Assembly: GCF_030418315.1 (NCBI RefSeq)
Contig: NZ_JAUHPV010000001.1
Coordinates: 248,001 to 312,000, forward strand
From: Demequina zhanjiangensis
GTDB lineage: Bacteria > Actinomycetota > Actinomycetes > Actinomycetales > Demequinaceae
Length of the DNA: 64,000 bases
Direction of reading: 5' to 3'
The position numbers were made by a program, and so were the translations under genes. Under the pieces are notes generated by a model. That model ran no database searches. It was not told where the DNA came from and saw nothing but the letters and a program-made list of their open reading frames with translations. Positions 13,602 to 42,535 of this stretch are shown one piece after another (the stretch's first letter is position 1; the number at the start of each line of letters is the position of its first letter).

Positions 13602-13607
13602 GGCGCG

Positions 13608-13684
13608 CGTCGTGACTGGCGCAGTGGGTCACCACGAGGGAGCGACACCTTTCTCGAGACTGTTGGTCGTACGCCTGGGCCAAG
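13608..13684 (+). ncRNA. ZTP (pfl) riboswitch
   Basis: The 5' half contains GTGACTGGCG (13612-13621), then a GTGG/CCAC hairpin, then GGGAGCGAC, and the 3' half contains the hallmark CGCCTGGGC (13672-13680). These are the conserved elements of the pfl RNA, which binds the purine-pathway alarmones ZMP and ZTP that build up when 10-formyl-THF runs short. GTCG (13609-13612) pairs with CGAC (13642-13645) to form the first stem. glyA and folD, which restore one-carbon folates, follow directly, as expected for this riboswitch class. Confidence 0.88.
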
Positions 13685-13699
13685 GTCACCGGACATACC

Positions 13700-13732: not shown

Positions 13733-15028
13733 ATGAGCACCGACTCCAGCGCCACCGCAGCGGTGATGAACGCCACGCTGCAGGACTTCGACCCCGAGAT
13801 CGCGCAGGTCCTCGACCGCGAGCTCGCCCGCCAGCAGACCTACCTCGAGATGATCGCGTCGGAGAACTTCGTGCCGCGCTCGGTCCTCCAGGCCCAGGGT
13901 TCCGTGCTGACCAACAAGTACGCCGAGGGCTACCCGGGCCGCCGCTACTACGGCGGCTGCGAGGAGGTCGACGTCGCCGAGAACATCGCGATCGACCGCG
14001 CCAAGTCGCTCTTCGGCGCCGAGTACGCGAACGTCCAGCCCCACTCGGGCGCGACCGCGAACGCCGCCGTCCTGCACGCGCTCGCCAGGCCCGGCGACCG
14101 GATCATGGGCCTCTCGCTCGCCCACGGCGGTCACCTCACGCACGGCATGAAGCTCAACTTCTCCGGCAAGCTGTACGAGGTCTCCGCGTACGGCGTCGAC
14201 GACACGACCCACCTGGTGGACATGGACAAGGTCCGCGAGCAGGCGCTCGCCGACCGTCCCGACGTCATCATCGCCGGCTGGTCCGCGTACCCCCGCCACC
14301 TCGACTTCGCCGCCTTCCGCGCGATCGCCGACGAGGTGGGCGCCAAGCTCTGGACCGACATGGCGCACTTCGCCGGCCTCGTCGCCTCGGGCCTGCACCC
14401 GTCGCCCATCCCCCACTCGGACGTGGTCTCCACCACGATCCACAAGACGATCGGCGGACCGCGCTCCGGCATGATCCTGTCGCGCGACGCCGAGGCGTAC
14501 GGCAAGAAGCTCAACTCCGCGGTGTTCCCCGGCCAGCAGGGCGGCCCGCTCATGCACGTCGTCGCCGCGAAGGCCGTGGCCCTCAAGGCGGCCGCCGGCT
14601 CCGAGTTCCGTGAGCGCAACGAGCGCGTCCTCGAGGGTGCGAAGATCCTCGCCGACCGTCTCACCTCGCCCGACGCGATCGAGGCGGGCGTCAACGTCGT
14701 CTCCGGCGGCACCGATGTCCACCTGGTGCTCGTGGACCTGCGCAACTCGCCGATGAACGGCCAGGAGGCCGAGGACCTGCTCCACGCCGTCGGCATCACC
14801 GTGAACCGCAACGCGGTGCCGAACGACCCGCGCCCGCCGATGGTCACCTCGGGTCTGCGCATCGGCACGCCCGCGCTCGCGAGCCGCGGCTTCGGCTCGG
14901 AGGAGTTCTCCGAGGTCGCCGACGTCATCGCGACCGCGCTCAAGGGCGGCGCCGACGTCGACGCGCTGCGCGCACGCATCGCGAAGCTCGCAGGCGACTT
15001 CCCGCTCTACGAGGGCCTCCAGCAGTAA
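13733..15028 (+). CDS. glyA: Serine hydroxymethyltransferase
   Basis: 431 residues. PLP enzyme that moves the serine hydroxymethyl carbon to THF, giving glycine and 5,10-methylene-THF. The PLP lysine is Lys238 in [10 protein letters not shown]. Other blocks are [18 protein letters not shown] and [17 protein letters not shown]. Good ribosome binding site (AGAGGAAAG). The TAA stop shares its last A with the folD ATG. Under control of the upstream ZTP riboswitch. Confidence 0.98.
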
Positions 15029-18666: not shown

Positions 18667-19302
18667 ATGAGCGAGACGTTCACCATCGCCCACGCCCGAT
18701 CCTGGATCGACGGGTTCGCCAGCCGCTGCGACGAGCAGAAGGCCTACCTCACCGAGCTCGACTCGGCGATCGGGGATGCCGACCATGGCGCGAACATGGC
18801 GCGGGGGATGGGGGCGGTGCGCGGTGCGCTCAGCGCCGACGAGCCGCAGGCGCTCGACGCGCTCTTCAAGGCCGTCGGCATGACGCTCGTGTCCTCGGTG
18901 GGTGGCGCGTCCGGACCGCTCTATGGCACCTTCTTCCTCCGCGTGGGCATGACGTCCGGCGCCGTCGACTCGCTCGACGGTGCCGGGCTGTCCGCCTCGC
19001 TCCATGCGGGCGTCAAGGGCATCGTCGACAGAGGCAAGGCAGAGGCGGAGGACAAGACGATGTTCGACGCCATGGCTCCCGCCCTCGATGCCCTCGACGC
19101 GTCGCTCGCCGAGGGAGGCGACCTCGCGGCCGCGGCCAGCGCCGCAGCCGAGGCCGCCGCCGCCGGCCGCGACGCGACCGAGCCTCTCCAGGCGCGCAAG
19201 GGGAGAGCCTCCTATCTCGGCGAGCGGTCGATCGGCCACATCGACCCCGGCGCCGCGTCGACGGCCCTGCTGTTCGACGCGCTGGCCGAAGCGCTGTCAT
19301 GA
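18667..19302 (+). CDS. dhaL: Dihydroxyacetone kinase, ADP-binding subunit
   Basis: 211 residues. Carries tightly bound ADP that is phosphorylated by DhaM and passed to DHA on DhaK. The Mg-binding aspartates Asp32, Asp37 and Asp39 are in ELDSAIGDADHGANM; SSVGGASGPLYGTFF is the nucleotide loop. AAGGAGG ribosome binding site. ATGA overlap with dhaM. Confidence 0.97.
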   Translation: MSETFTIAHARSWIDGFASRCDEQKAYLTELDSAIGDADHGANMARGMGAVRGALSADEPQALDALFKAVGMTLVSSVGGASGPLYGTFFLRVGMTSGAVDSLDGAGLSASLHAGVKGIVDRGKAEAEDKTMFDAMAPALDALDASLAEGGDLAAAASAAAEAAAAGRDATEPLQARKGRASYLGERSIGHIDPGAASTALLFDALAEALS

Positions 19303-30961: not shown

Positions 30962-31831
30962 ATGCTGCTGTTCTACATCGACGAGTGCGGGGACACGGCG
31001 CCGATCGCCCAGCGGCATCGCGCGCACGGATCGCCGAGCGAGCTGTTCATCCTCGCCGCGGTGGGCATCCACGACTCGTCACGCGAGCTGCTGGCCCACG
31101 AGATCATCGAGCTCAAGCGCCTCTACTTCCCGGAGACGGTGGGGGACGAGGACTGGGGTGTCTCCGAGATCAAGGGGCGGTTCCTCACGCACTCGTCGCG
31201 GCTGCGGGGGCATGAGCGGGCGCGGTTCCTCCCTGCGGGATGGAGGGAGGTCGACGATCCTGCGCTCATGCGGCACCTCCTGAACGACCTGGGCAACCTC
31301 TTCGCCAAGTTCAGGCCGCTGATCTTCACCTCGGTGGTCGACAAGCGGGCGATGCGAGACGCGGGAGAGGAGACCGACCCGCTGGCCATCGCGTACACGC
31401 GGCTCTACGAGCGCGTCGCGCTCACGCTCCACCAGGTCAACAGGGGTGAAGGAGCGCTGTTCGTCGCGGACCAGCAGGACGAGCACGAGAAGTACTTCAA
31501 GTCAGGAGCCATGCATGCCGCCAGAGCCGAGCTGGAGAAGCGTGAACGCAACCGTCCGCGCTTCGAGCCGGTGCTCGACAAGCCGCTCTGGATCGACCCC
31601 CACTACAGCACGCTCGATCGAGAGATCATCCAGCTTGCGGACATCGTCGCCTACTCGGTCAACGAGTGGTTCCAGCGTGGGGAGCCGCCGACCGAGCACC
31701 AATACCTGTGGAGGGCGATCGCGCCGTGCTTCTCCGCGCACTGGAAGACGCAGAAGTCGCACGGCGCGGGCCTGATGATCCACCCCGAGCGCGACGAGTA
31801 CCCGCGGATCGAGCCGCTGCCTGAGGGCTAG
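30962..31831 (+). CDS. DUF3800 protein
   Basis: 289 residues. DUF3800 begins with the acidic strand FYIDECGDT (residues 4-12) and has later conserved FVADQQDEHEKY and REIIQLADIVAYSVNEW segments, the RNase H-like arrangement of this family. Many DUF3800 genes lie in defence islands or mobile elements, but this one stands alone. TAGGCT at 30931-30936 and AAGGAGG at 30949-30955 give a clear promoter element and ribosome binding site. Its TAG stop shares CTAG with the stop of the convergent gene. Confidence 0.88.
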   Translation: MLLFYIDECGDTAPIAQRHRAHGSPSELFILAAVGIHDSSRELLAHEIIELKRLYFPETVGDEDWGVSEIKGRFLTHSSRLRGHERARFLPAGWREVDDPALMRHLLNDLGNLFAKFRPLIFTSVVDKRAMRDAGEETDPLAIAYTRLYERVALTLHQVNRGEGALFVADQQDEHEKYFKSGAMHAARAELEKRERNRPRFEPVLDKPLWIDPHYSTLDREIIQLADIVAYSVNEWFQRGEPPTEHQYLWRAIAPCFSAHWKTQKSHGAGLMIHPERDEYPRIEPLPEG

Positions 31832-37801: not shown

Positions 37802-38626
37802 ATGCGCATCGACCTCCACCTCCACTCGACCGTGTCCGACGGCACGGGCTCGCCTTCGCAGGTGATGCACGAGGCCGCGGACGCCGGACTCGACGTCGTC
37901 GCGCTCGCGGACCACGATGCGATGGACGGATGGGACGAGGCACAGGTGGCGGCGGATGAGCGCGGCATCCGCCTGATCCCGGCGATCGAGGTCTCGGCCC
38001 GTCACCGTTGGGTCTCCGTCCACATGCTCGCCTACTGGCCCGACAGGGACGATGCCGCGCTGCGGGAGATGCTCGCCCGCACCCAGGAGGCGCGCGTGGG
38101 CAGGGCGAGGGAGATCGTCGAGAAGATCGCCGTCGACTATCCCCTCACCTGGGAGGACGTCGAGGCGCGTGCGGGTGTGTCCGCCACCGTCGGACGCCCC
38201 CACATCGCCGACGCGCTCGTCGCCAGAGGAGCCTTCCAGACCCGGGACGACGTGTTCGCGCACGTCCTCAAGAACGGATCGCCCTACTACGTGCCCCACT
38301 ACGCACCCGAGGTGGAGGAGGCGATCGGCGTCATCCGCGCGGCGGGCGGCGTGCCGGTGTTCGCGCATCCCGGAGCGCACGCGCGCGGCAGGACCGTGCC
38401 GGATTGGGCCATCGCCGAGCTCGCGAAGGCGGGCCTCGCGGGGCTCGAGGTCGACCACCGCGACCACGACGACGCCACGCGGCTCCACCTCGCCGGGCTC
38501 GCTGAGCGATACGGGCTGCTGCGCACCGGGTCGTCCGACTATCACGGCACGGGCAAGTTGAACCGGCTCGGGGAGAACCTCACCGAGCCCGCGGTGCTCG
38601 CGGCCCTCGAGGCGCAGCGGGGCTGA
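37802..38626 (+). CDS. PHP-domain phosphoesterase
   Basis: 274 residues. Metal-binding blocks of the PHP fold: HLHS (residues 6-9), ADHDAMDG, PAIEVSA, PVFAHPGAHA, EVDHRDHD and SSDYHG. The closest known group is the YciV/RNase AM type, which removes phosphate from 3',5'-bisphosphonucleotides or trims RNA 5' ends; exact activity not certain. The last 13 codons and the stop lie in the 45-bp direct repeat that returns at the end of the acyltransferase gene. Confidence 0.92.
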   Translation: MRIDLHLHSTVSDGTGSPSQVMHEAADAGLDVVALADHDAMDGWDEAQVAADERGIRLIPAIEVSARHRWVSVHMLAYWPDRDDAALREMLARTQEARVGRAREIVEKIAVDYPLTWEDVEARAGVSATVGRPHIADALVARGAFQTRDDVFAHVLKNGSPYYVPHYAPEVEEAIGVIRAAGGVPVFAHPGAHARGRTVPDWAIAELAKAGLAGLEVDHRDHDDATRLHLAGLAERYGLLRTGSSDYHGTGKLNRLGENLTEPAVLAALEAQRG

Positions 38627-38629
38627 GGC
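38585..38629 (+). repeat. 45-bp direct repeat, left copy
   Basis: Exact 45-bp match to 40773-40817. It encodes the last 13 residues (EPAVLAALEAQRG), the stop codon and 3 further bases of the PHP gene. Internal CCGCG/CGCGG half-sites around a short spacer and a CCTCGAGG palindrome can be seen within it on either strand. Confidence 0.95.
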
Positions 38630-38735
38630 ATCGAGCCCGGACTTGCGCGCCGCATCCGCCGCTAGAGTGACCTCACGCGGAGCGTTCCAGGTCGAGGGGG
38701 TCGAGGGGCTGAACGGCGAGGGGAGGGCGCGTCAG

Positions 38736-40814
38736 ATGCGAGCTCGGTTGGCGGATTTCGCGGGCGCGGACCCGATAGTCGAGAACGGCTCGACTCCTGC
38801 TCGCGCGTCGAGACGTGACATCCAGGCCTTGAGAGCCTTCGCGGTGTTGGCGGTGATTGGCTACCACTACTGGCCCGAACTGCTTCCGGGCGGTTTCATC
38901 GGCGTGGACGTGTTCTTCGTCATCTCGGGCTATCTCGTGGGCGGCGCGCTGATGCGCGAGGCATCGCGAACCGGTCGAGTCGACATGCGCGGCTTCATGC
39001 TCCGCCGTGCCCGGAGGATCCTCCCGGCCGCGATGGTCGTCATCGCTGTCACCGTGGTCGGTGCGTCTCTGCTGTCATCTCCGGTGCGCAGCGCGCTCTG
39101 GAAAGTCCCGTGGAGCGAGGGGTCGTACTCCCGAGAAGCGCTGGCAGCAGTGGCCCAGGTGTCCAACCTGCTTTTCGCGGGACGGCACGTCGACTACGAC
39201 TCTGCGGTGCCCTCGCCCTTCCTCCATTTCTGGTCGCTCGGCGTAGAGACGCAGTTCTATCTCCTGATGCCTCTCGTGGCAGTCGGGGTCGCGGCTGCGG
39301 TGGCGAGAGCCTCGAACCGCTCCGAGCTCGTTGAGCCGTTGGTGCTCGCCGCATTGTCGATTGGCCTGATCGATCTGATGCTCGTCGTCGGTGGCACGGA
39401 CGGTGGGTTCTACAACCCGCTCGGCCGACTCGCGGAGTTCGTCGCCGGAGTCGTAGTAGCACGCGTGGCCTGGAGGTATCGAACCCGTGCTTCGACCGCG
39501 GTGGTCGCACTGGGATGGAGCCTTCTCTTCGCCACCTCGTTCCTCGTGGCTCTGTCGCAGCACTGGCCGAGCTTCGTGACGTTGCTTCCTGTCGTTGGCG
39601 CCATGGCGGTGCTGCTTCCTGGGTCCGCCCTCCGGGTCGCTGGCCTCGGGCGCTCGTCTCTTGTCCAGGGGTGCGGTGATCGCTCGTACTCCCTGTACCT
39701 CGTTCATTGGCCGCTGCTCGTGCTCGCAGGAATCCTTCTCGACCGAGAGCCCTCGAACCTGGAGCGCATCGTCATCCTCGCGATCGTCGCGGTCCTAGCT
39801 GAGGCGCTCTATCGGTATGTGGAGCAGCCTGCGCGTCGCCTGCCGATCGAATCGGTCAATGACCGCCGCCGTGCGGTCCTTCGGATCGCGTTCCCGACCG
39901 TTGTCGCGTTCTCATCCGCGCTCGCGATCGGGATCGCCTCCTCGCTCTCTCCAACAGTGGGTAGTCAGGTGGCCGAGAGATATGCGCCCATCGACCTCGC
40001 TGAACTACCCGGTCAGGTGGCAACCTCCGTACCGGTGAACGTGCGCCCCGCCCCCGAGGTGGCCAGTGTGGACCTGCCAGCGTTCTCACCGCCCCACTGC
40101 CACGAGACGTCGGGTCAGGACGAGCGTACGGGGCCGTGCATCGTTGGCGACGAGGGTGCACCGCTCGTTGTGCTCTGGGGAGACTCCCACGCGGCGCAGT
40201 GGTACCCAGCGCTCGCCCTCATGGCCGATCAAGGAACGATACGCCTCGAGTCCTATACCAAGGGAGGCTGTTCGCCGCTCGCCGGCATCACGGCGGACGA
40301 CTCCCTGTCGGGGCGGTGTCTCGAGTGGTTGGAGTGGTCGCTTGCGCAGATCGTGTCGAGTGAACCGGCCGCCATCGTCTCCACGAGCAAGCTCTCCTAT
40401 CACTGGGACGATTCTGAGGTAAGCCCCGAAGCCTACGTCGATGGGTTGGATTGGCTTGGCCGCCGCCTTCCCGCTGGTGTGCCCGTGGTGTGGATCTCCG
40501 ACAATCCGCGATTCCCGGAGTCGCCCGGTGAGTGCGCCGTCAGACACATCCATGAAGTGGAGCCGTGCAACGTTCCGCGTCTCGAGGCGTTCCCCCACGA
40601 GGTCCAGGCGGACGTCAACCACGCGGCACGCGAGCGAGGCTTCGGCGTGCTCGACATGACGGATCTGTTCTGCACTGAGAGTTCTTGCCCGATCATTCTG
40701 GGCGACATCCTGGTGTATCGGGACGACGACCACGTCACGGCGACGTTCGCGGAGGCATCGGCGCCGGTAGTGGAGCCCGCGGTGCTCGCGGCCCTCGAGG
40801 CGCAGCGGGGCTGA
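38736..40814 (+). CDS. OafA-type membrane acyltransferase with SGNH domain
   Basis: 692 residues. N-terminal acyltransferase-3 membrane domain (about 28-400, ten or so helices; DIQALRAFAVLAVIGYHYWP, GFIGVDVFFVISGYL, LHFWSLGVETQFYLL). Extracytoplasmic SGNH esterase-like domain (about 440-675) with Ser484 in WGDSHAAQW and the Asp/His block DDDHVTA at 663-669. Such proteins O-acetylate cell-surface glycans. The final 13 residues are encoded by the 45-bp repeat and equal the PHP protein's C-terminus, so the original C-terminus was replaced. Start chosen at ATG 38736 after GGGAGGG. Confidence 0.92.
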   Translation: MRARLADFAGADPIVENGSTPARASRRDIQALRAFAVLAVIGYHYWPELLPGGFIGVDVFFVISGYLVGGALMREASRTGRVDMRGFMLRRARRILPAAMVVIAVTVVGASLLSSPVRSALWKVPWSEGSYSREALAAVAQVSNLLFAGRHVDYDSAVPSPFLHFWSLGVETQFYLLMPLVAVGVAAAVARASNRSELVEPLVLAALSIGLIDLMLVVGGTDGGFYNPLGRLAEFVAGVVVARVAWRYRTRASTAVVALGWSLLFATSFLVALSQHWPSFVTLLPVVGAMAVLLPGSALRVAGLGRSSLVQGCGDRSYSLYLVHWPLLVLAGILLDREPSNLERIVILAIVAVLAEALYRYVEQPARRLPIESVNDRRRAVLRIAFPTVVAFSSALAIGIASSLSPTVGSQVAERYAPIDLAELPGQVATSVPVNVRPAPEVASVDLPAFSPPHCHETSGQDERTGPCIVGDEGAPLVVLWGDSHAAQWYPALALMADQGTIRLESYTKGGCSPLAGITADDSLSGRCLEWLEWSLAQIVSSEPAAIVSTSKLSYHWDDSEVSPEAYVDGLDWLGRRLPAGVPVVWISDNPRFPESPGECAVRHIHEVEPCNVPRLEAFPHEVQADVNHAARERGFGVLDMTDLFCTESSCPIILGDILVYRDDDHVTATFAEASAPVVEPAVLAALEAQRG

Positions 40815-40817
40815 GGC
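40773..40817 (+). repeat. 45-bp direct repeat, right copy
   Basis: Exact copy of 38585-38629, in the same reading frame relative to its gene. It supplies the last 13 codons and the stop of the acyltransferase gene. The bases next to the repeat differ on both sides, so its ends are sharp. Confidence 0.95.
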
Positions 40818-40833
40818 CCCACGCTGGAACGAC

Positions 40834-40871
40834 GAAGGCCGGGCCCCTCCCGAAGGAGGAACCCGGCCTTC
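40834..40871. terminator. Two-way terminator between the acyltransferase and DEAD-box genes
   Basis: GAAGGCCGGG (40834-40843) pairs with CCCGGCCTTC (40862-40871), with CCTCC (40846-40850) and GGAGG (40855-40859) forming an inner stem closed by a CGAA loop. It lies between convergent genes. Confidence 0.75.
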
Positions 40872-40886
40872 CGAGTCTTCTGGGCC

Positions 40887-42503
40887 CTACTCGGCCGCGG
40901 GCTGCGTCTGCTGGCCCTGGCCGCCACCCGAGCCGCCGCGACGGCGACGACGACGGTTGCGCTTGGGGCGCTCGCCGCCCTCGGCCGCGGGAGCGGAGCC
41001 CTCGGCGCTGCGGGGCGCCTCGGCGCGCTCGCCACGGCCCTCGCCGCTGCGCTCGCCGGAGCCTCCACCACGGCGACGGTTGCGACCGCCACCGTTGCGG
41101 CCGCCCTCTCCGCGCCCACCATCACGGCCGCCACGGCCGCCGTCACGACCACCGCGGCCTCCGCCGCGGTGGTCGCCGTGGCCCGCAGCCTTGCCGGTCT
41201 CGCCCAGGTCCTCGAGCTTCTCGCCCTCAAGGCCCTCGAGCACCTGCTTGTCCTTGGGCAGGCGGCCCTTGGTGCCGGCGGGGATGTCCAGGTCCTCGAA
41301 CAGGTGGGGGGACGACGAGTAGGTCTCGACGGGCTCGGGGTAGCCGAGGTCGAGAGCCTTGTCGATCAGCGACCAGCGCGGGATCTCGTCCCAGTCGACG
41401 AACGTGACCGCGGTACCGGTCTTGCCCGCGCGGCCGGTGCGGCCGATGCGGTGCAGGTAGGTCTTCTCGTCCTCGGGGCACTGGTAGTTGATGACGTGCG
41501 TCACGTCGTCCACGTCGATGCCTCGGGCCGCGACGTCGGTGGCGACGAGGACGTCGACCTTGCCGTGGCGGAACGCGCGGAGCGCCTGCTCGCGCGCGCC
41601 CTGGCCGAGGTCGCCGTGGATGGCGCCGGCCGCGAAGCCGCGCTCGCGGAGATCGTCGGAGACCTTCGCGGCGGTGCGCTTGGTGCGAGCGAACACGATC
41701 GTGCGGCCGCGTCCCTCCGACTGGAGGATCCGGGCGACGACCTCGACCTTGTCCAGCGCGTGCGCACGGTAGACGACCTGCTTGATGGCCTTCACGGTGG
41801 AGCCCGAGTCCTCGGGGTCGTTGGCGCGGATGTGCGTGGGCTGGATCATGTAGCGGCGCGCGAGGGTGACGACGGCGCCGGGCATGGTGGCCGAGAACAG
41901 CATGGTGTGGCGCGAGGCCGGGGTCGCGGCGAGGATCTTCTCGACGTCAGGCAGGAAGCCGAGGTCGAGCATCTCGTCGGCCTCGTCCAGCACGACCGTC
42001 TTGACGTAGCGAAGGTCGAGGTGGCCCTGGTTCAGGAGGTCGATGACGCGGCCCGGCGTGCCGACGACCACCTCGACGCCCTTGTTGAGCGTCTCGATCT
42101 GCGGCTCGTAGGCGCGGCCGCCGTAGATCTGCGCGATGCGGATCTTCCGCTTCCTCGACGCGGTCTCGAGGTCACCCGCGACCTGCACGGCGAGCTCGCG
42201 CGTCGGCGCGATGACGACGGCCTGGGGCTTGCCCTGCGCATCGTCGAGGCCGTCCCAGCCGTCCTCGCCCGGCGCGATCGCACGGTGGAGCAGCGGGACG
42301 CCGAAGCCCAGCGTCTTTCCCGTACCGGTCTTGGCCTGGCCGATGATGTCGTGGCCCGAGAGGGCGACGGGCAGCGTCATCGCCTGGATCGGGAACGGGG
42401 TCAGGATCCCCTTGTCGGCGAGCGCCTCGACGATCAGGGGATTGACGTCGAAGTCGGCGAATGTCTTGTCTGCGTGCTGCACGGATGCGTGCGTATCTGT
42501 CAT
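40887..42503 (-). CDS. DEAD-box RNA helicase with Arg/Gly-rich tail
   Basis: 538 residues, RhlE/DeaD-like. Core motifs in order: Q motif (FADFDVNPLIVEAL), AKTGTGKT, PTREL, GTPGR, DEAD, SAT, the ARGIDV region and HRIGRTGR. Residues from about 410 on are low-complexity, with RGG/GGR repeats and a final Arg-rich block, typical of RNA-binding tails. Roles in RNA unfolding, ribosome assembly or cold adaptation are inferred. ATG 42503 is preferred; another ATG lies 15 nt upstream. Confidence 0.95.
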   Translation of the reverse strand: MTDTHASVQHADKTFADFDVNPLIVEALADKGILTPFPIQAMTLPVALSGHDIIGQAKTGTGKTLGFGVPLLHRAIAPGEDGWDGLDDAQGKPQAVVIAPTRELAVQVAGDLETASRKRKIRIAQIYGGRAYEPQIETLNKGVEVVVGTPGRVIDLLNQGHLDLRYVKTVVLDEADEMLDLGFLPDVEKILAATPASRHTMLFSATMPGAVVTLARRYMIQPTHIRANDPEDSGSTVKAIKQVVYRAHALDKVEVVARILQSEGRGRTIVFARTKRTAAKVSDDLRERGFAAGAIHGDLGQGAREQALRAFRHGKVDVLVATDVAARGIDVDDVTHVINYQCPEDEKTYLHRIGRTGRAGKTGTAVTFVDWDEIPRWSLIDKALDLGYPEPVETYSSSPHLFEDLDIPAGTKGRLPKDKQVLEGLEGEKLEDLGETGKAAGHGDHRGGGRGGRDGGRGGRDGGRGEGGRNGGGRNRRRGGGSGERSGEGRGERAEAPRSAEGSAPAAEGGERPKRNRRRRRRGGSGGGQGQQTQPAAE

Positions 42504-42535
42504 GTGGTGTCCCAGCATCGGGGCGCCTCAGGGGG

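Follow-up and report, generated by a model that had tools for sequence, protein, structure and literature searches.

In the 64,000-nucleotide stretch of the Demequina zhanjiangensis genome analysed here (hereafter the window; contig NZ_JAUHPV010000001.1, positions 248,001 to 312,000), an AT3-SGNH (OafA-type) acyltransferase gene lies between a PHP-domain phosphoesterase gene and a convergent DEAD-box helicase gene. The PHP and acyltransferase genes end in exact copies of the same 45-bp sequence (Table 1). We propose that the acyltransferase gene is foreign and was probably inserted here once, and recently, by illegitimate recombination that duplicated 45 bp of its PHP target.

The two repeat copies are identical at 45/45 bp and spaced 2188 bp apart, and their flanking bases differ (C/G at the left edge and A/C at the right). 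In both genes the repeat codes in frame for EPAVLAALEAQRG followed by TGA, giving two unrelated proteins a shared C-terminus of 13 codons plus stop. This arrangement had been described in the original prediction, which was made from the sequence alone. Both copies were re-read and the coordinates and flanks agree, as do the open reading frames and Pfam matches of the two genes. Its description of the intervening DNA as lower in GC and carrying one gene was likewise borne out, with 65.7% GC in the acyltransferase gene versus 70.5% in the window and a single long gene between the repeats. A genome-wide search of G000 for the 45-mer at up to three mismatches gave two occurrences. Within the window, no direct repeat combining a 24-bp exact seed with a length of at least 26 bp was found besides the 45-bp pair, which is also the only exact direct repeat of at least 18 bp at a spacing of 300-12,000 bp. 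Across the PHP loci of the 44 genus genomes, 690 kb in all and including 14 kb of the window, the longest other exact repeat at that spacing was 24 bp. The 45-bp repeat is far above chance expectation. A structured attachment or attC-like repeat was rejected, as the 45-mer folds no better than its shuffles (z 0.14).

Since the genome is an 18-contig draft, an assembly artefact was considered, and 45 bp is shorter than many assembly k-mers. However, the repeat lies inside a 584-kb contig, the insert holds a full-length gene of a family matched in 26/44 genus genomes, and a false join would still require a true 45-bp match. We regard an artefact as scarcely credible.

The PHP gene is present in 44/44 genus genomes, our own included. 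In two congeners, G001 and G012 (88% and 73% PHP identity to the window gene), the site is empty: the PHP stop runs directly into a homologue of the sequence from 40818 onward, followed by the convergent DEAD helicase gene. This is the empty site that the original prediction had proposed looking for. Given these empty sites, copy 2 with its right flank corresponds to the ancestral junction, to the left of which 2143 bp of new DNA and a second copy of the PHP tail were added. The longest exact match between the PHP tail and the downstream DNA is 10 bp in both G001 and G012, and at most 15 bp in all remaining congeners compared, the window excepted. As judged from these comparisons, the insertion at the PHP 3' end is real.

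Table 1. Features of the PHP/DEAD junction in the window and related features at other loci.
Feature	Location	Strand	Details
PHP-domain phosphoesterase gene (274 aa)	37802..38626	+	target, left intact; PF02811 42.3 bits
45-bp repeat, copy 1	38585..38629	+	last 13 PHP codons, TGA stop, GGC
Unique insert, 2143 bp	38630..40772	+	106-bp leader and acyltransferase gene up to the borrowed tail
AT3-SGNH (OafA-type) acyltransferase gene	38736..40814	+	PF01757 112.5 bits, PF19040 109.4 bits
45-bp repeat, copy 2	40773..40817	+	acyltransferase 3' end, joined to ancestral PHP downstream sequence
Terminator-like hairpin between PHP/acyltransferase and DEAD	40834..40871	+	-31.1 kcal/mol, z -4.75
DEAD-box helicase gene	40887..42518	-	convergent, right edge of junction; PF00270 161.3 bits
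AT3-SGNH acyltransferase gene overlapping PHP stop	L156 7650-10600 (G058); L036 8845-11792 (G021)		
56-bp tandem array across PHP 3' end	L129 13985-14155 (G039)		3.1 copies at 93%
Large serine integrase gene (529 aa) beside truncated ChlI/ComM-like gene	L166 12377-14591 (own genome C15, ~246.4-248.6 kb)		

The acyltransferase gene deviates in composition from its surroundings. Its GC content at third codon positions (GC3) is 0.78, versus 0.87-0.95 in seven neighbouring genes, and the second AT3-SGNH gene of the same genome has a GC3 of 0.907. The gene looks foreign, and we consider it a candidate for horizontal acquisition. The genus search returned 47 acyltransferase matches, with C-termini listed for 30 loci, and the nearest relative was G047a at 37-39% identity. 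Searching the genome_contigs set gave 13 acyltransferase loci at 26-33% identity. A plasmid or phage origin of the cargo was rejected, as the 5 plasmid and 71 phage records that matched were all below 60% identity; identity was ~26-38% among the 5 plasmid and 20 phage matches listed. One viral acyltransferase relative was found, at 30% identity over part of the gene.

Phylogenetically, G047a and G009a form a group with the window gene, which sits on a long end branch of 1.17; support for this grouping is a modest 89/89, below the tree tool's star. G021 and G058, the latter from another genus of the same family, pair at 100/99. G047a and G009a adjoin genes that by eye are pyrB/pyrC-like, and the 11-kb stretches around them contained no PHP or DEAD match. 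A separate observation at these loci is a protein of 582-585 aa (GC3 0.73-0.76) that adjoins the nearest acyltransferase relatives (G047/G009; L083 7098-8846 and L082 2434-4191) and had no Pfam match at L083 or L082. In our reading the window gene arrived separately at a junction that is permissive, the alternative being a shared older history of the locus.

We infer that the insertion involved illegitimate recombination with a copying-error step, for which the following course is proposed. The acyltransferase gene, with its own leader, would have entered between the PHP gene and the hairpin that PHP shares with the convergent DEAD helicase gene. DNA synthesis would have proceeded through the PHP tail and switched template to donor DNA directly after TGAGGC, after which the donor leader and acyltransferase gene would have been copied. 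Synthesis would then have returned to a point ~45 bp upstream via a short match of the acyltransferase and PHP 3' ends, at the Glu-Pro-x-Val-Leu codons, so that the PHP tail was copied a second time and PHP stayed whole. The acyltransferase would have kept a complete SGNH domain, exchanged its last few native residues for the PHP tail, and gained the PHP downstream hairpin. Such a course would not require a dedicated recombinase.

The repeat copies are identical to each other, but G001, G004 and G048 diverge from them by 20-23% over the same 39 nt. This suggests that the duplication is recent, unless the copies have been kept alike by conversion. With regard to conversion of the PHP tail from the acyltransferase gene, the last 39 nt are ordinary, as 18-42% of PHP windows are as divergent or more so. 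Similarity of PHP to its relatives in 60-nt blocks along the gene revealed no abrupt step.

The left edge of the repeat encodes Glu-Pro. The native tail of G047a is APVLEPEVLKISRRQ, and the window acyltransferase ends in APVVEPAVLAALEAQRG. When 15-mer PHP tails were compared with the G047a gene, 1-2 of 2103 registers scored at or above the junction-homologous position for G001, G048 and G012, and 8/2103 did so for G004. A short match between the two unrelated genes may thus have pre-dated the event and set the right junction.

Several results weigh against this account of the junction and of a foreign origin. Lengthening the PHP tails of the four congeners to 24-mers weakens the G047a match (17-106 of 2094 registers at or above). 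The second-nearest relative, G009a, has no such match: 226-840 of 2064 registers were at or above for the 15-mers of the four congeners, 94/2064 for the window's own 15-mer, and 38-429 of 2055 for the four congeners' 24-mers. The four PHP tails are also related and are therefore not independent tests. As for composition, the relatives G047a, G009a and G021 have a GC3 of 0.70-0.74, and GC3 across 26 AT3-SGNH stretches spans 0.59-0.98. Since relatives are also low in GC3, composition alone does not prove transfer. The donor search, covering 44 genus, 47 family and 396 sampled order genomes, found nearest acyltransferases that were only 35-39% identical, which leaves the left junction without a sequence to compare. 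Finally, an acyltransferase of this subfamily occupies the same junction in G021 and G058 as well, which pure accident alone does not explain.

In these two genomes the acyltransferase gene lies between PHP and DEAD without a tail repeat, and its start overlaps the PHP stop codon (by eye in G058). The PHP and acyltransferase genes of G021 and G058 look like a translationally coupled pair. They bring in a serious, if unlikely, alternative, in which the window locus already held the acyltransferase gene, in the arrangement of G021 and G058, and the empty sites reflect losses; or else a conspecific strain carrying it was the source. The 45-bp copy would have been added later by recombination between the 3' end of the acyltransferase gene and that of PHP in an empty-site allele, through one homologous junction in PHP and one illegitimate junction at the acyltransferase tail. 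Besides the gene order in G058 and G021, it is consistent with a repeat that begins at the short match and ends where the downstream DNA of donor and recipient would diverge, and just one illegitimate junction would be needed. Conversely, the genomes nearest by PHP (G048, G004, G001 and G012) have no acyltransferase at the junction, and the window gene groups with G047a and G009a, albeit modestly and on a long branch, rather than with the G021/G058 pair. The window also has a 106-bp leader instead of a start/stop overlap, and the GC3 of its acyltransferase departs from that of the neighbours. We retain a single recent insertion with target duplication as our preferred explanation.

Across the genus, gene content at the PHP/DEAD junction is variable, as read from the assemblies. 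Four genomes (G055, G007, G005 and G020) were excluded from the distance measurements as their contigs end before DEAD. The distance from PHP to the aligned part of DEAD, which may exceed the true gap by up to ~300 bp where the match stops near DEAD residue 443, is 74-457 bp in 12/40 genomes and at least 649 bp in 28/40, the window included. In G004 it reaches ~8.4 kb, and the gap in G048 is ~270 nt without a long gene. Just 3' of the PHP stop, this G048 gap (L081) has an inverted repeat, seen by eye, around CACGTCCTGCACAC / GTGTGCAGGACGTG. A Pfam scan of seven proteins occupying the junction in six congeners identified an S4-domain protein, a GNAT acetyltransferase, a UPF0176/rhodanese protein, a glycerate kinase and two ABC transporter permeases, and one protein had no Pfam match. 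The tandem array across the PHP 3' end of G039 hints that this end may be prone to re-copying.

The original prediction had interpreted the insert as a one-gene cassette that entered by site-specific recombination at the PHP 3' end, with the mobilising enzyme encoded elsewhere. Moved by an integrase in trans, such a cassette would resemble a cis-mobilizable element (CIME) or a satellite. CIMEs and integrative elements at gene 3' ends are associated with a direct repeat at the regenerated end. An exact direct repeat of 45 bp located at the 3' end of a gene, the regenerated target and the single-gene cargo would all suit such a cassette. The genome also encodes a large serine integrase of 529 aa, and two more resolvase-type frames are free of internal stops. 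Still, we consider it improbable, and a recombinase-driven cassette is not supported. The insert itself has no recombinase, as had been stated, and its single long gene is the acyltransferase. PHP-tail duplications flanking cargo, which might have revealed other cargo ending in the PHP tail, were found in 0/38 readable congeners. These are the 43 others minus the four genomes named above and G042, which had a partial PHP match and an apparent 'tail' that is not the PHP tail. Moreover, the first 42 repeat bases at up to three mismatches were found in 0/43 other congeners and the exact 45-mer was absent from the viral contigs searched. The left edge of the repeat coincides with tail residues common to G047a, which is unexpected for an att core, and the folding of the repeat is ordinary.

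The mobilising enzyme, expected to act from elsewhere, did not emerge either: genome scans found no integrase candidate tied to the PHP site. The two tyrosine recombinases found in the genome are XerC/XerD-like; one is nearest XerC and the other nearest XerD or a general tyrosine-recombinase model, and both score under the XerC/XerD equivalog cut-offs, the second passing that of the general model. There were four resolvase-type matches, including one frame with two internal stops and the large serine integrase. The latter adjoins a truncated ChlI/ComM-like gene, and the longest match of the 45-mer to the 18.5 kb around it is 13 nt. It probably belongs to an element that integrated in the comM-like gene; a gene that by eye is dprA-like lies nearby. 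A second resolvase gene and smaller genes with lower GC3 lie to the left of the serine integrase. In summary, the inserted gene and the empty sites of the cassette claim stood, its site-specific mobilisation was not supported, and recombination-mediated duplication, which the original prediction had named as the alternative, fits better.

A broader possibility, and a very improbable one, is that genes for surface acyltransferases attach at the PHP 3' end across the family through the action of an enzyme not yet recognised, with G000, G021 and G058 as separate captures of this kind of gene at one junction. If so, the 45-bp repeat would be the fresh scar of the latest capture.

DNA transposition or Ku-dependent end joining of a staggered break would formally be expected to duplicate the target. 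However, unlike in a DNA transposon, the insert ends are not inverted repeats (by eye) and its one long gene is not a transposase. Ku had no match in this 99.55%-complete genome, in a search that among 14 control genomes matched only that of B. subtilis. We give either route next to no chance.

The closest known kind of event is insertion with long target duplication (Nobusato et al. 2000, Gene 259:99-108, as cited in PMC1643837, PMC3154945, PMC3031569 and PMC4978471), which those citing accounts describe for restriction-modification genes, the first description coming from a pair of H. pylori genomes. As in that description, the gene is absent from relatives and the direct repeat is a single-copy target in the empty genome. 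Unlike in the founding cases as cited there, the cargo is an acyltransferase instead of a restriction-modification system, a feature not treated as defining. A mild twist is that the duplicated target serves as the cargo's tail: unlike in the cases these accounts describe, the repeat is the in-frame C-terminus and stop of the cargo. Direct repeats are reported in PMC2884548 to flank 10-18% of small variable segments, with 66-94% of the repeats shorter than 30 bp. Slippage between short repeats, that is, short-homology-dependent illegitimate recombination, is thought likely there, and such repeats are also seen as deletion sites, not just as insertion scars. The flanking direct repeat here is alike, but measures 45 bp. 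PMC3240628 covers one-sided, homology-facilitated illegitimate recombination, along with single-crossover duplications. The one homologous and one illegitimate junction of such recombination would give the anatomy of a later-added copy at an occupied locus, with the homologous side hypothetical in our case. Similar flanking repeats around moved plant genes are noted in PMC2869330. The locus differs from a CIME in that the insert lacks an integrase and no second element or other cargo was seen at the site.

The acyltransferase gene probably starts at ATG 38736, after a GGGGAGGG stretch (by eye), although the listed frame begins at TTG 38643. Both the AT3 and SGNH Pfam domains were matched with scores far above cut-off, and the SGNH model is matched up to its final position, which falls on residue 712 in the frame of 723 aa and thus lies two residues inside the repeat. 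The enzyme is therefore probably intact. In having both domains it resembles other OafA-type AT3-SGNH acyltransferases, and it differs from them in sharing its last 13 residues with the unrelated PHP protein. The best NCBIfam match is SucT, at 185.5 bits far under the cut-off of 1275. The translation contains GDSH and DxxH, which we take to be motifs of the acyltransferase family. Presumably, by family membership, the enzyme is likely to carry out O-acyl modification of a cell-envelope glycan.

Comparison of the acyltransferase leader with the upstream DNA of relatives at five loci gave no convincing match, and a sigma-70-type promoter scan of 38560-40960 gave none. A sequence similar to the downstream hairpin is seen by eye in G001 and G048, and a terminator scan that requires a run of T listed no terminator-like site at 40834..40871. 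As the genome contains a ComEC-type competence domain, DNA uptake by this bacterium would be possible; the specific transfer route is hypothetical.

Elsewhere in the window, a ZMP/ZTP riboswitch (48.7 bits) at 13602-13687 lies upstream of a gene at 13733 that is glyA-like by eye. A tRNA-Ala (ggc) at 19101-19198, called by ARAGORN and not by Rfam at the gathering threshold, overlaps protein-coding frames at their ends and is probably a false call. At 30962-31831 is a DUF3800 gene for which PHROG and PADLOC searches gave no match.

The locus would be a well-preserved case of a foreign surface-modifying gene entering a chromosome without a recognisable mobile element and leaving its neighbours unharmed. 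The copied target codons would have supplied the incoming gene with a stop, an in-frame end and a hairpin downstream. Should short matches of the kind seen at the junction prove general, single-gene gains at gene 3' ends may be predictable from C-terminal codon matches between unrelated genes. The PHP/DEAD junction, being variable, would offer a genus-wide site for comparing such gains.

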